20,705 nt of DNA from contig JBFLYA010000052.1 of NCBI GenBank assembly GCA_040757115.1, forward strand, positions 1 to 20,705, written 5' to 3'. The position numbers and the translations under genes were made by a program. This DNA is from a bacterium. Its GTDB lineage: Bacteria > UBA9089 > CG2-30-40-21 > SBAY01. The notes below the pieces were generated by a model, which did no database searches, was not told where the DNA came from, and saw nothing but the letters and a program-made list of their open reading frames with translations. Below, one piece after another: positions 4,752 through 16,998 of this stretch. Every line of letters begins with the position of its first letter. Positions within the stretch are counted from its first letter, which is position 1.

Positions 4752-4762
4752 TAGAAAAATTG

Positions 4763-5008
4763 GTAACCGTTCAGGTGGTAATTTACCGCAGAGACGCAGA
4801 GAAACAGAGAGGAAAATATCTTTTTTTTCGTGTTTTTCGCGTTTTTCGGTGTTTAAAAAGGCTTAAAAACAGTTAGTCAAAAGTCCGTATTAAAAGATTA
4901 ATAAACAACGAAAGACCCGAAATGCACAAAAAAAAGGAAATTTCTGTCTCTGGTGAATAGATTTTAATTTTTTCTCTGCGTCTCTGTGTCTCTGCGGTGA
5001 ACGGTTAC
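4763..5008. mobile_element. MITE copy 1 (GTAACCGTTCA termini)
   Basis: A 246-bp non-coding element begins GTAACCGTTCA and ends TGAACGGTTAC, a perfect 11-bp terminal inverted repeat. Just inside, 'accgcagagacgcagagaaa' on the left faces 'ctctgcgtctctgtgtctc' on the right, so each arm forms an imperfect stem of about 40-50 bp. The flanks are AAAAATTG (4755-4762) and AAATTG (5009-5014), readable as a target duplication of 8 bp that lost two A, or of 6 bp. Its interior is nearly identical to the copy at 16765-16998 apart from a 12-base deletion there. It contains no open frame of note. GTAA ends with 8-bp duplications are characteristic of IS66 elements, so trans-mobilisation by an IS66-type transposase is inferred. 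Confidence 0.85.
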
Positions 5009-5034
5009 AAATTGAAGATGTGGCTATTTTTCTG

Positions 5035-5064
5035 TTGACAATTCTAATAGGTTATGATAACCTA
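5035..5064 (+). promoter_or_regulatory. Palindromic operator candidate with TTGACA
   Basis: TTGACA at 5035-5040 is followed by TAGGTTAT-G-ATAACCTA (5048-5064), a perfect 8+1+8 palindrome. No good -10 box lies at 17 bases (TAACCT at 5058; GATAAC at 15 bases), so the promoter is uncertain, but a palindrome of this size where a -10 box should sit is typical of a repressor site. It is 70 bases upstream of the small gene at 5135. Confidence 0.4.
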
Positions 5065-5076
5065 AATAGGAAGTTA

Positions 5077-5117
5077 GGGGTGTGTGTAATAAAAGCAGGT
5101 AAAATTGGACACGCCCC
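5077..5117 (+). promoter_or_regulatory. Leader hairpin before the 69-residue gene
   Basis: GGGGTGTGT (5077-5085) can pair with ACACGCCCC (5109-5117): nine pairs, one of them G-U, around a 23-base loop. The hairpin ends just before the Shine-Dalgarno sequence 'aaggtgag' (5120-5126) of the gene starting at 5135. It could affect mRNA stability or translation; no known riboswitch class was recognised. Confidence 0.4.
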
Positions 5118-5134
5118 CGAAGGTGAGATAAATT

Positions 5135-5344
5135 ATGAGCACTAAAATAGGTAATCCAGCGGATGTGGAGGGGATGTTTGAGGTAATAAAATTAATAGAG
5201 GAATTACGCGATATATTTCGGCAAACCGCTCCACTCCATATTCTCAATTCTCAACAAAAACAACAGGCAAAACAATTATTATCCACGGCTAAAAATATAC
5301 TGGATAAGGTAGAAAAGTCCCTGTGCGGTTATAGCGATTATTAA
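5135..5344 (+). CDS. Small helical hypothetical protein, 69 residues
   Basis: The only intact plus-strand gene in the window. ATG at 5135 follows 'aaggtgagataaatt', a fair ribosome binding site. The product is charged and helical ('VIKLIEELRDIFRQ', 'QQKQQAKQLLSTAKNILDKVEKSL') with no signal peptide or membrane segment; a short coiled coil or antitoxin-like helical bundle is possible, but no family was recognised. The last six residues (CGYSDY) and the stop are read from the adjacent repeat cassette: a near-identical 'ttatagcgrttattaactgg' recurs at about 5786. So the native C-terminus has probably been replaced. It is read divergently from polA with the MITE between them. A true gene is likely but unproven. 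Confidence 0.5.
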   Translation: MSTKIGNPADVEGMFEVIKLIEELRDIFRQTAPLHILNSQQKQQAKQLLSTAKNILDKVEKSLCGYSDY

Positions 5345-5526
5345 CTGGAAGTCTACATAGGATAATACCCATAAATAAGGCATGAGAATAATCGTTCCGT
5401 TAGGAACATAATATCGGTAGGAATAGATAGACAAATCAATCAGTTCCGTAGGAACGATATATTGGTAGAAAATTTATGGAAAGCCATTTACCGATATATT
5501 GTCCCTATGGGACAATATTTGTATGA
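5336..5526. repeat. Hairpin-plus-tail repeat cassette A
   Basis: This holds three short hairpins: GTTCCGTTAGGAAC (5394-5407) with tail 'ataatatcggtag'; GTTCCGTAGGAAC (5443-5455) with tail 'gatatattggtaga'; and, inverted, ATTGTCCCTATGGGACAAT (5498-5516) preceded by 'taccgatat'. Unit plan: 5-6-bp stem, 3-4-base loop, A/T-rich tail ending in 'ggtag'. Stretches 5336-5420 and 5421-5470 recur almost unchanged at 5796-5876 and 5923-5973. No coding potential is seen. Confidence 0.75.
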
Positions 5527-5536
5527 TATTTATTTC

Positions 5537-5751
5537 GTAACTATTCACCATTCACAATTTCTTCCCTAAATTTCCTTAATAATGGTGAATGGTGAATTGT
5601 CAATTGTGAATTGTGAATTATCACTCTTCACGGTGTCAAGCAAACCTGGCCCAAGAGTTCGATGCACCGCTATAGCGCATCCAATGACTCTATTCGATAA
5701 TTCATCAAATTTCACTTCGTGCTCTCCGTCCCCTTCGTGGTGAATAGTTAC
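5537..5751. mobile_element. MITE with perfect 8-bp target duplication
   Basis: A 215-bp element with a perfect 14-bp terminal inverted repeat, GTAACTATTCACCA (5537-5550) and TGGTGAATAGTTAC (5738-5751). It is flanked by TTTATTTC on both sides (5529-5536 and 5752-5759), a perfect 8-bp target duplication. The outer 11 bases match the same consensus (GTAACYRTTCA) as the 4763-5008 element, but the interior is unrelated: 'gaattgtcaattgtgaattgtgaatt' type runs and a hairpin GATGC..GCTATAGC..GCATC near 5663-5683. No open frame of note. It inserted within the hairpin-repeat array. Confidence 0.88.
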
Positions 5752-5760
5752 TTTATTTCT

Positions 5761-5974
5761 ACCGATATGTTGTCCCTATGGGACATTATAGCGGTTATTA
5801 ACTGGAAGTCTACAGAGGATAATGCCCATAAATAAGGCAGGAGAATAATCGTTCCGTGAGGAACATAATATCGGTAGTCTTACCATGAGAATAATCGTTC
5901 CGTTAGGAACATAATATCGGTAGGAATAGATAGACAAATCAATCAGTTCCGTAGGAACGATATATTGGTAGAAT
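5761..5974. repeat. Hairpin-plus-tail repeat cassette B
   Basis: Second copy of the array, with hairpins TGTCCCTATGGGACA (5771-5785, preceded by 'accgatatgt'), GTTCCGTGAGGAAC (5851-5864), GTTCCGTTAGGAAC (5897-5910) and GTTCCGTAGGAAC (5946-5958), each with a 'tatcggtag' or 'gatatattggtaga' tail. Stretches 5796-5876 and 5923-5973 duplicate cassette A. One extra unit (5877-5922) is inserted relative to A, suggesting growth by unit duplication. Confidence 0.75.
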
Positions 5975-6020
5975 TAAAGAGATGGATGTTTGTTCAAAAT
6001 CTTTCTTTTTTTCTGTGAAT

Positions 6021-6083
6021 AGGCTGAAGGCGAAAGGCTTAAGGCTGAAGATTTTTTATCCTATATCCTTCAGTCTTCAGCCT
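6021..6083. repeat. Inverted repeat 3' of pyrF
   Basis: AGGCTTAAGGCTGAAG (6035-6050) faces CTTCAGTCTTCAGCCT (6068-6083): 14 of 16 positions pair around a 17-base loop. A further AGGCTGAAG lies at 6021-6029. It sits downstream of the pyrF stop and could end the folP-pyrD-pyrF transcript, though no T-run follows the stem in that direction; on the plus side 'actttttacttt' follows it. Confidence 0.45.
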
Positions 6084-6104
6084 ACTTTTTACTTTCTCCT
6101 CCCT

Positions 6105-6147
6105 TTTATCCGTGCTCATCCGTGTTAATCAGTGGCTAAACAGTTAT
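6105..6147. repeat. Remnant of a second small repeat at the pyrF end
   Basis: 'tccgtgctcatccgtgttaatcagtggct' followed by 'aaacagttat' matches one end of the 92-bp nested element at 7912-8003 ('...agtggctgaatagttac' type). The last codons of pyrF, including its stop, fall in the terminal part of this remnant, so the repeat supplies the gene's end. Confidence 0.5.
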
Positions 6148-6882: not shown

Positions 6883-7770
6883 TTATTCGATTAGTCTGGC
6901 TTTTTTATTTTCTCTCAAATAATTTTCTATCCCTGCAATAATCTTTAACGGGACTTGCGGGTCAACGAAATTTGCCGTGCCGACTGCGACTGCGGTTGCT
7001 CCAGCAATGATGAATTCTAAGGCATCGGTGGTGTTCATAATTCCGCCCTGCCCAATAATGGGGACATGGACGGCCTTTGCGACCTCAAAGACCATTCGGA
7101 GTGCAATTGGTTTGATTGCTGGTCCGGACAACCCACCAGTAATATTAGCCAAAATAGGTTTTCGGGTATTAACATCAATCGCCATTCCCATGATAGTATT
7201 GATTAAAGAGATGGCATCTGTGCCCGCATCTTCGGCGGCTCTGGCAATTACTTTTATATCCGTAACATTTGGAGATAGCTTGGTGATTAATGGAACTTTG
7301 CTCACCTGACGAACATTGCTTACCACTTGATATGTCAGGGAGGAATCCTGCCCAAATTCCAATCCCCCTTTTGCCACATTCGGACAGGAAATGTTAATCT
7401 CCAAACCATCTACTAATCCATCTAACCTTCTGGCTAATTCAACATATTCCTCAACCGTCTTCCCGGCAATATTGGCAATCAGCGGGGTATCGAATTGCCG
7501 CAGGTAGGGTAATTTTTCCTTGATGAATTTTTCTACCCCGACATTTTCTAAACCAATGGCATTAAGCATTCCGCAGGGAGTTTCTACAATGCGAGGTGGA
7601 GGATTACCCTGGCGTGGGGCTAATGTAATTCCTTTACTCACAATTGCCCCGAGTTTATTTAAATCAATCAATTGAGCGTATTCCTCGCCATATCCAAATG
7701 TGCCGGAGGCAACCATCACTGGATTTTTCATCTTTATACTGGCAATATTTACTGTTAAATCAGGGTTCAT
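6883..7770 (-). CDS. pyrD: Dihydroorotate dehydrogenase, class 1B catalytic subunit
   Basis: Oxidises dihydroorotate to orotate with FMN (pyrimidine synthesis). The 295 residues contain '[16 protein letters not shown]', '[12 protein letters not shown]', '[12 protein letters not shown]' with the class 1 catalytic Cys129, 'KLSPNVTDI', '[17 protein letters not shown]' and 'IIGQGGI', all typical of the NAD-linked 1B form (PyrDB). The open frame continues 59 codons upstream to 7947, but that part is read through a MITE and is not homologous. ATG 7770, preceded by GGAG with six bases between, gives 'MNPDLTVNI' and the normal length. The usual electron-transfer partner pyrK is not next to it. It is downstream of folP; before the MITE arrived, the folP stop lay 44 bases upstream. 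Confidence 0.95.
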
Positions 7771-7848
7771 TCTTTTCTCCAATCGCCTATCCTCATGAAA
7801 AAATAGTTCACACCTTATTTCTTCAATCCTGAACCTTCCCGAATAATC

Positions 7849-8059
7849 GCGACCGTTCAGGTGGTAATTTACCGCAGAGACGCAGAGGAACAGAGAAGAC
7901 ATAGAAATAAAGTAACTATTCAGCCATTGATTAACACGAATTAGCACGGATAAAAAAATAAAATCAGTGTTTCATCTATGTCCATCTGTGGCTGAATAGT
8001 TACCAATAGATTTTAATTTTTTTTCTCTGCGTCTCTGTGTCTCTGCGGTGAACAGTTAC
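7849..8059. mobile_element. MITE copy 3, inserted in the folP 3' end
   Basis: Left end GCGACCGTTCA (two changes from GTAACCGTTCA), right end TGAACAGTTAC (8049-8059), with the family's inner arms 'accgcagagacgcagagga' and 'ctctgcgtctctgtgtctct'. Flanking GAATAATC (7841-7848 and 8060-8067) is an 8-bp target duplication, or 10 bp if GC is counted. The central part of copy 1 is missing and replaced by another element (7912-8003). The right arm encodes the C-terminal tail of FolP; the rest separates folP from pyrD. Confidence 0.85.
7912..8003. mobile_element. 92-bp repeat nested in the MITE
   Basis: A perfect 15-bp terminal inverted repeat, GTAACTATTCAGCCA (7912-7926) and TGGCTGAATAGTTAC (7989-8003), encloses 'ttgattaacacgaattagc' and 'catctatgtccatctgtgg', themselves imperfectly complementary, so the element is one long hairpin. 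The outer 11 bases fit the same GTAACYRTTCA consensus. No target duplication is visible, so it may have been exchanged by recombination rather than by fresh insertion. A remnant of this type ends pyrF. Confidence 0.75.
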
Positions 8060-9260
8060 GAATAATCGCATCAAGCATAAGTGCTACTCGCCTGGCAGAT
8101 TTAACATCATGCACGCGAAGGATATTTGCTCCATTTAATATCGAAATTGCCACTGTCGCCAGAGTCCCTTCTAATCGCTCTTCAACCGGTAAGTCCAGAA
8201 TTTTACCAATAAACGATTTTCGTGAAGTGCCAATTAAAATTGGTAAGCCAGGACTTTTGAATTCTCTTAATCTTCTTAAAATCTGTAGATTATGCTCCAC
8301 CGTCTTCCCAAATCCTATTCCGGGGTCGATAATAATCTTTTCTTTATCTATTCCAGAATCTTGAGCAAATTTAACTCTTTCTCTAAGATAAAGTATAATT
8401 TCAGAAACGACACATTTATATTGAGGGTTTTCCTGCATATCTTGTGGTGTGCCTTGAATATGCATCAAGACAACAGGGACTTTATATCCAGCGACTACCT
8501 TTGCCATATTCATATCAAATTTTAAGGCACTAATATCATTAATGATATGTGCCCCTTCAGCCAAACAGGCTTTTGCGACCTCTGATTTATATGTATCTAT
8601 GGAGAGCGGTAAATCAATATTTTCTTTAATAAGCCTTTTTACGATTGGTATGAGTCTTTCTAATTCTTCTTTTACCGAAGACGGTTTGGCTCCCGGGCGT
8701 GTAGATTCCCCACCAATATCAATTATATCTGCCCCTTCTTCCTTCATCTCAAATGCCCTTTTAATAGCCTTTTCAGGTTCATCATATTGTCCACCATCTG
8801 AAAAAGAATCTGGCGTTACATTTAAAATACCCATAATAAAAGTTCTTTGGGCAAGGTTAAATTGGTATTTTCCACAGACTAACTTGAAGTCATCCTTAAT
8901 AAAATTATTTAATACCTCTTCAATCTTATCGGCGAGGTCAGATAGTCCAAAATATTGGGATTGAAGTTTGCTGATTAATCTTTGATAATGTTTTAAGCTA
9001 CCTATGAGCAGGACATCTGTGGTTTTGCAGTTGAGAGAGATGGCGTCTTTAGTTAGAGCCGCCTCACCGCCGATGGAAAGCATTTCTTGTTTAAGGATAA
9101 GGGCAGGTTTTAGAGCAACATCTTCTAATTTTATCACCCGGCATACTGCTTTTTTCGCCATTAAATCAATTCCTTTAGGGTCAACACTTATCTTTTTCAT
9201 CTCATCACAGATTTGTTTTTCATTATAGATTTCTAAAACTCTGATTTTATAATCATTCAT
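8013..9260 (-). CDS. folP: Dihydropteroate synthase with N-terminal extension and MITE-derived tail
   Basis: Condenses 6-hydroxymethyl-dihydropterin diphosphate with p-aminobenzoate in folate synthesis. The TIM-barrel starts near residue 138: 'GILNVTPDSFSDGG', 'DIIDIGGESTRPGA', 'LSIDTYKSEVAKA', 'IINDISA', 'MHIQGTPQDMQENP', 'IIIDPGIGFGKTVEHN', 'GTSRKSFIGKI', 'RVHDV'; all substrate loops are intact. About 135 residues precede it, an extension seen in some DHPS of deep-branching bacteria and archaea. ATG 9260 follows GAGGTGAT at good spacing. The last 14 residues (NCSPQRHRDAEKKN) are read from the MITE at 7849-8059. Skipping the insertion restores '[12 protein letters not shown]' and a stop at 7815-7817. 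The new tail lies beyond the last helix and is probably tolerated. Confidence 0.95.
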   Translation of the reverse strand: MNDYKIRVLEIYNEKQICDEMKKISVDPKGIDLMAKKAVCRVIKLEDVALKPALILKQEMLSIGGEAALTKDAISLNCKTTDVLLIGSLKHYQRLISKLQSQYFGLSDLADKIEEVLNNFIKDDFKLVCGKYQFNLAQRTFIMGILNVTPDSFSDGGQYDEPEKAIKRAFEMKEEGADIIDIGGESTRPGAKPSSVKEELERLIPIVKRLIKENIDLPLSIDTYKSEVAKACLAEGAHIINDISALKFDMNMAKVVAGYKVPVVLMHIQGTPQDMQENPQYKCVVSEIILYLRERVKFAQDSGIDKEKIIIDPGIGFGKTVEHNLQILRRLREFKSPGLPILIGTSRKSFIGKILDLPVEERLEGTLATVAISILNGANILRVHDVKSARRVALMLDAIIRNCSPQRHRDAEKKN

Positions 9261-9308: not shown

Positions 9309-10202
9309 TTATCTCTTCAAAAACTTAAATAACGGTAGTCTTTGCGTTTTAAATCGCCTATTTTTATCAAACAGGTGATATTGAATAGGTTCACTGCCAT
9401 AAATACAGAGATTTTTATATCTATCGGTATTTTGACAAAAACAACAAATGCCATTTTCCTTAGGTTTAGCAAGGCATTCGTTATCGCAATAAAAACAATC
9501 AGCGATAAATACGATAATAGCCCAATAAAAATCATCCTTTATATCATAAATTTGCTCTTTTGATAGATTAAGTTTATCTTCTTGATTTAATTTATTAATC
9601 TCGTTTTCAAAACATTCCACAAGATGCCCACCTGTCCTGACCGCAAAGAAATCACCCAGAGTTTGCTCTGCTAATTCTTCTGGAAAATCTTCAATAGTTA
9701 TTCCATTCAGGAAGATTTGCTTTTCAAATAATGCACTTCCATCCTCAATATAATTAATTGGACATCGCACTTCACAGCTATAGCATCTATTTACCTTTTC
9801 GTAACAAAGCGGGATAATGTTGTTAACTAATTGGTCTATAAGTATTTTGGGTGAAATAAATAAATTAGAAATCTTTGGCAGAAAATTATTAACTATTGCG
9901 CCCGTAAGATTGGCTACTTCGAAGACAAAATTATCAATTTTGGTTGGTTTTTTGGGGTCAACATATCTTTTTAGAAATTCTTCTCCCGATATAAGAATAG
10001 GAATCTCTTTTTCTAATATTTCTTTTTGGTTTGTCTTTTGTAATTCATAGAATTCGCCTTTAACTAAGTAAGGGCAATTTTGTGGGCAGTTGATTTCAAT
10101 TGTTCTTTTTTTACCACAGCATAAAGAGCATATCTGGTTATTTAATGCCGGACACCATCTTTTAGCCTTTGTATTTCCACAAGATAGACAAATAGTTTCC
10201 AT
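9309..10202 (-). CDS. Cysteine-rich protein, probable metal binding, function unknown
   Basis: 297 residues with three Cys clusters. The N-terminus (1-46) reads C-x2-C-x7-C-x7-C-x2-CC-...-C-x3-C, including 'ICSLCCGKKRTIEINCPQNC'. I have seen this type of motif at the start of uncharacterised proteins of anaerobes and read it as a treble-clef or knuckle metal site. The middle has 'CYEKVNRCYSCEVRCP'; the C-terminal third has 'CFYCDNECLAKPKENGICCFC'. There is no signal peptide or membrane helix, so it is cytosolic. ATG 10202 follows GGGAGGGG, a strong ribosome binding site. It lies between the MITE-scarred end of the signalling operon and folP (48-base gap), so it is probably co-transcribed with folP. 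Zinc or iron-sulfur binding cannot be decided from sequence. Confidence 0.8.
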   Translation of the reverse strand: METICLSCGNTKAKRWCPALNNQICSLCCGKKRTIEINCPQNCPYLVKGEFYELQKTNQKEILEKEIPILISGEEFLKRYVDPKKPTKIDNFVFEVANLTGAIVNNFLPKISNLFISPKILIDQLVNNIIPLCYEKVNRCYSCEVRCPINYIEDGSALFEKQIFLNGITIEDFPEELAEQTLGDFFAVRTGGHLVECFENEINKLNQEDKLNLSKEQIYDIKDDFYWAIIVFIADCFYCDNECLAKPKENGICCFCQNTDRYKNLCIYGSEPIQYHLFDKNRRFKTQRLPLFKFLKR

Positions 10203-16764: not shown

Positions 16765-16998
16765 GTAACCGTTCAGGTAATCCTTTACCGCAGAGACGCA
16801 GAGAAACAGAGAGGAAAATATCTTTTTTTCGCGTTTTTCGGTGTTTAAAAAGGCTTAAAAACAGTTAGTCGAAAATAAATATTAAAAGATTAATAAACAA
16901 CGAAAGACCCGAAATGCACAAAAAAGGAAATTTCTGTCTCTGGTGAATAGATTTTAATTTTTTCTCTGCGTCTCTGTGTCTGTGCGGTGAACGGTTAC
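16765..16998. mobile_element. MITE copy 2
   Basis: A 234-bp element, GTAACCGTTCA (16765-16775) to TGAACGGTTAC (16988-16998), with a body almost identical to copy 1 (4763-5008), including the run at 16845-16875 about 'aaaaaggcttaaaaacag'. It lacks 12 bases of the 'ttcgtgtttttcgcg' tract and has a few substitutions. No target duplication is visible (AAGAAAAT left, CAATATTA right), so it probably recombined after insertion. Its right end is 5 bases from the yifB stop codon. Confidence 0.85.

Follow-up and report, generated by a model that had tools for sequence, protein, structure and literature searches.

Insertion of a miniature transposon into the 3' end of folP and replacement of the FolP C-terminus in an uncultured bacterial lineage

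In the 20,705-nucleotide stretch of DNA analyzed here (the window), which derives from a 4.3-Mb draft genome of 462 contigs (G000), the last codons of folP are encoded by a 211-bp miniature transposon (MITE). We consider it very likely (probability roughly 0.94) that a non-autonomous IS66-family MITE inserted in folP, replaced its tail and persisted as a probably neutral change. Under the mechanism we propose, a MITE that cannot move by itself, from an ISBst12-like lineage of the IS66 family, entered folP seven codons before the stop and duplicated 8 bp of target. The folP frame now continues into the right arm of the element, gains 14 residues there and stops at an internal TAA, while the ancestral end survives downstream of the element. 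Persistence of the insertion would be explained by the folding and catalysis of dihydropteroate synthase (DHPS) ending before the insertion point.

The insertion in folP and its reversal

The relevant features, in window coordinates, are as follows.

6883-7770, minus strand: pyrD (dihydroorotate dehydrogenase, PF01180), by Pfam match
7815-7840, minus strand: remnant of folP's former 3' terminus, with the remaining EGSGLKK codons and the stop at 7815-7817, from excision and the DAIIR/DAIIREG ends of relatives
7841-7848, no strand assigned: target-site duplication copy 1, GAATAATC, flanking the MITE
7849-8059, no strand assigned: MITE, 211 bp, with full-length siblings sharing both boundaries
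7912-8003, no strand assigned: palindrome nested within the MITE (GTAACTATTCA...TGAATAGTTAC), a unit that itself resembles an element and that sibling copies also have
8013-9260, minus strand: folP (DHPS, PF00809), now 415 aa, by Pterin_bind profile match and homology to DHPS 1tws
8016-8057, minus strand: FolP tail NCSPQRHRDAEKKN from the element, 14 codons, with the stop TAA at 8013-8015, also in the element
8060-8067, no strand assigned: target-site duplication copy 2, GAATAATC, flanking the MITE

FolP carries a complete Pterin_bind domain at residues 143-384 (E 2.2e-91, profile positions 1-244 of 244 covered), and homology to DHPS 1tws reaches residue 400 and then ends, just before the insertion point. 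On the minus strand the 3' codons of the gene read GCG ATT ATT CGT AAC TGT TCA CCG CAG AGA CAC AGA GAC GCA GAG AAA AAA AAT TAA, translated as A I I R N C S P Q R H R D A E K K N stop (AIIRNCSPQRHRDAEKKN*). The codon CGT is split at the element boundary: the target copy supplies its C, the element supplies GT, and the arginine stays an arginine; all 14 residues after it are element-encoded. An initial annotation had assigned the present end of FolP to an arm of the MITE, and this codon reading agrees, placing the last 14 residues and the stop inside the element. The reconstructed ancestral protein had 408 aa, and the swap exchanged the 7-aa EGSGLKK for the 14-aa NCSPQRHRDAEKKN.

The same annotation had held that removing positions 7849-8067 restores the old end, a claim that proved exact to the base in all its coordinates: with the element and one repeat copy taken out, the EGSGLKK end returns, the stop falls at 7815-7817 and pyrD follows 44 bases on. 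The spacing from the folP stop to the pyrD start codon, which begins at 7770, is now 242 bases. The predicted empty site would read ...GATTATTCGGGAAGGTTCAGGATTGAAGAAATAA, and an uninterrupted folP end ...CGGGAAGGTTCAGGATTGAAGAAATAA. The claimed 8-bp duplication is present as GAATAATC in both copies; from the folP site alone its length is ambiguous, the local direct repeat there being 11 bp (CGAATAATCGC), and it is set at 8 bp because flanking repeats across the family peak at that length.

Read on the minus strand, the right end of the element is GTAACTGTTCA, and its left, pyrD-side end at 7849 is GCGACCGTTCA, two substitutions from GTAACCGTTCA. The ends are terminal inverted repeats of the GTAACYGTTCA type, with 30-nt arms that are 83% complementary, and the 211 bp hold no transposase-sized ORF.

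FolP tails from 29 related genomes and about 75 GTDB genomes end soon after the conserved RVHDV...DAI helix, with DAIIR, DAIIRRETLF, DAIIREG, DAIIRG and similar endings; of two relatives in the same family, one ends in DAIIR and the other in DAIIRRETLF, and DAIIREG is the ending in a further genome of the phylum. The comparison with relatives' DHPS proposed as a check on the reconstruction recovered ends of the DAIIR/DAIIREG kind, and the SPQRHRD type of tail was absent from about 100 related FolP proteins. Same-family relatives that possess folP are about 74% identical, and in them the EGSGLKK tail is not exactly kept. The sister assembly G001, the only same-genus genome compared, is without folP and pyrD and apparently breaks next to pyrF; a scan of genome contigs likewise yielded no FolP from the genus. 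In a genome from another family of the phylum (G015), FolP ends in ...GLKFEFCNSSANHRGHRK*, a repeat-like tail (L038:2696-2745) with one other copy at 87% in that genome, possibly an independent repeat-derived tail. Upstream of folP, window positions 9309-10202 encode a 297-aa cysteine-rich protein for which a Pfam search returned no match.

A large MITE family and its likely source transposase

The window element is a member of a large MITE family whose copies are short, dispersed and numerous, with inverted repeats and a fixed 8-bp duplication. Used as a query against its own genome, it gave 93 matches, among them several full-length copies that are 93-96% identical and share its boundaries, and the exact 11-bp end GTAACYGTTCA occurs 652 times in the 4.3 Mb versus 13 times for the reversed control. 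In the first 1.9 Mb, 62 of 183 usable end pairs are flanked by exact 8-bp duplications (0.4 expected from shuffled partners) and none by repeats of 9 bp or more, which excludes chance as the origin of the flanking duplications; across 2.19 Mb, about half of the 4.3 Mb, exact 8-bp duplications flank 77 distinct elements. Ends of this type number 637 in the sister genome G001 and 493 in G008, are also frequent in G013 and G003, and are close to the background level in a number of the phylum's other families. Elsewhere in the window, the polA-pyrF intergenic region (4752-6135) is dense in repeats with many copies in the sister genome; elements lie at 4763-5008 and 5537-5751, the latter flanked by the exact duplication TTTATTTC, and a 234-bp element with the same end family lies at 16765-16998.

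Three properties connect the family with an IS66/ISBst12 source: GTAA-starting ends, the 8-bp duplication and the presence in G000 of an IS66 element whose ends match. This last element (L120:893-2455, G000:C277) is 1,563 bp long, has ends GTAACCGTTCAGGT...ACCTGAACGGTTAC and matches PF03050 (E 5.9e-39); its single-frame transposase has decayed through two nonsense codons (one TAA, one TAG), and its flanks show no duplication. It is the only copy in G000 with matching ends on both sides; we found no intact IS66 transposase in that genome, nor an autonomous full-length element combining an intact transposase with an exact 8-bp duplication. In G004, a genome from a different family within this order, a 1,505-bp IS66 element is bounded by GTAACCGTTCAC ends and has a frame that stays open for 476 aa. 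ISDge4, an active IS66 element of the ISBst12 group, has the terminal inverted repeat GTAACTGCTCAGCA, comparable with GTAACYGTTCAGG of the MITE, and makes an 8-bp direct repeat as the MITE does (PMC12898284); 8-bp repeats are also reported for other IS66 elements. Elements of the ISBst12 group carry a single-ORF PF03050 transposase (PMC12898284), and the decayed G000 element is likewise single-frame, whereas the window element is 211 bp, without a transposase and one of a family of hundreds of copies. Because the decayed IS66 element of G000 has the same ends, we propose that these MITEs were likely mobilized in trans by an IS66/ISBst12-type transposase.

Gene-end insertions and the sister species

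Tail rewriting recurs in G000 because insertions occur at gene ends and never in gene bodies. Of the 77 elements in 2.19 Mb, not one interrupts the body of an ORF of at least 150 aa, where uniform insertion would place 51, and 12 fall within the final 12 codons (1.5 expected), counts by ORF position being approximate since ORFs were called mechanically. The identities of four affected genes are supported by Pfam. In SecA, ATV was replaced by GNRSGGNLP; in a glycosyltransferase, AKNDIDK gave way to TVHRRDTETQRKN; and two further proteins, one with DUF2162 and one with a Germane domain, both became 4 residues shorter, because one frame of the element end (GTAA) is a stop. Some other genes kept their tails because the duplication contains the stop, and all three reading frames of the MITE end occur among the gene-end insertions.

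Between -36 and +100 bases relative to ORF stops, insertions that retain intact duplications are roughly 3-4 times as dense as in other non-coding DNA. This clustering may reflect a target preference or only selection; that the IS66-type MITE family prefers to insert around stop codons, and is thus a systematic rewriter of protein C-termini, we regard as a tentative and rather doubtful generalization.

The sister species provides an independent validation of the excision rule. Its SecA is 99% identical, lacks the element and ends in EKATV*, versus EKGNRSGGNLP in G000, and the G001 sequence at the site (GGAAAAGGCAACTGTTTAAATG) is, base for base, the empty site predicted from G000; over the 500 bases compared there are only 8 differences, none of them at or beside the junction. 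The glycosyltransferase insertion is common to both genomes with an identical tail, and the non-coding part of that element is nearly as conserved as the tail, so there is no sign of selection on the tail.

Competing readings, precedents and significance

The repeat could have been mis-joined into folP during assembly, as the genome is a draft with hundreds of repeat copies and contigs often break at repeats. This is the least probable of the alternatives, since mis-joining would not make the exact 8-bp duplications seen at the window element and 76 others, and the glycosyltransferase insertion recurs in the independent assembly G001. Only slightly more credible is a folP that is inactivated or decaying, with the insertion as part of its decay: the insertion does fall within the coding frame, but the 415-aa frame is intact, the Pterin_bind profile is full, DHPS homology runs throughout and only residues past the domain are altered. 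FolP is presumably still made and active.

We also think it improbable that FolP has adopted the element-coded tail, for stability, oligomerization or regulation, or that the hairpin of the element regulates pyrD. The tail is an open frame, basic and of the same kind as the glycosyltransferase tail conserved in the sister species, and the element RNA folds very stably (-106 kcal/mol for 291 nt, z -9.0). However, every palindromic MITE folds in this way, a scan of the element found no terminator-like site, the conservation of the glycosyltransferase tail is nearly matched by non-coding DNA, and sibling insertions merely shorten two proteins by 4 aa. Promoter-like sites in the element are no commoner than in shuffled sequence. 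With the catalytic domain untouched and only residues beyond it changed, the exchange of the FolP tail was probably selectively neutral, judging from the sequence.

C-termini supplied by MITEs are already known (described in PMC2759123, reviewed in PMC10969869), and the FolP event is a new, unusually well-resolved case of such a fusion. In enterobacteria, RU-1/ERIC insertions at gene ends give new C-termini to the ECA3499 amidase and the ECA0168 threonine dehydrogenase (Delihas 2007, PMC2759123); there, as here, the gene for a conserved enzyme has a MITE-like repeat at its 3' end, the old stop is lost and a new C-terminus begins past the domain. The element family is a different one, and here the 8-bp duplications allow base-exact undoing, and for SecA a sister species shows the empty site. 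Rickettsia palindromic elements are short palindromic repeats translated within host proteins as in-frame fusions, in many metabolic genes (PMC10969869). Like them, the MITEs become part of host proteins, but their insertions lie only at the extreme 3' end and use every reading frame of the element end, one frame giving an immediate stop (GTAA). A search of the open-licence literature turned up no paper describing such IS66-derived MITEs, and the abundant MITE repeat of this uncultured lineage is apparently undescribed.

These cases offer clean, base-exact examples of miniature transposons changing protein ends in essential-type genes (FolP, SecA), including one empty site and one common site in a sister species, and they tie a very abundant repeat of an uncultured lineage, in all likelihood, to IS66/ISBst12 transposases. 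Among the predicted proteins of this lineage, odd tails that recur, SPQRHRDAEK for example, are transposon arms, not conserved domains.
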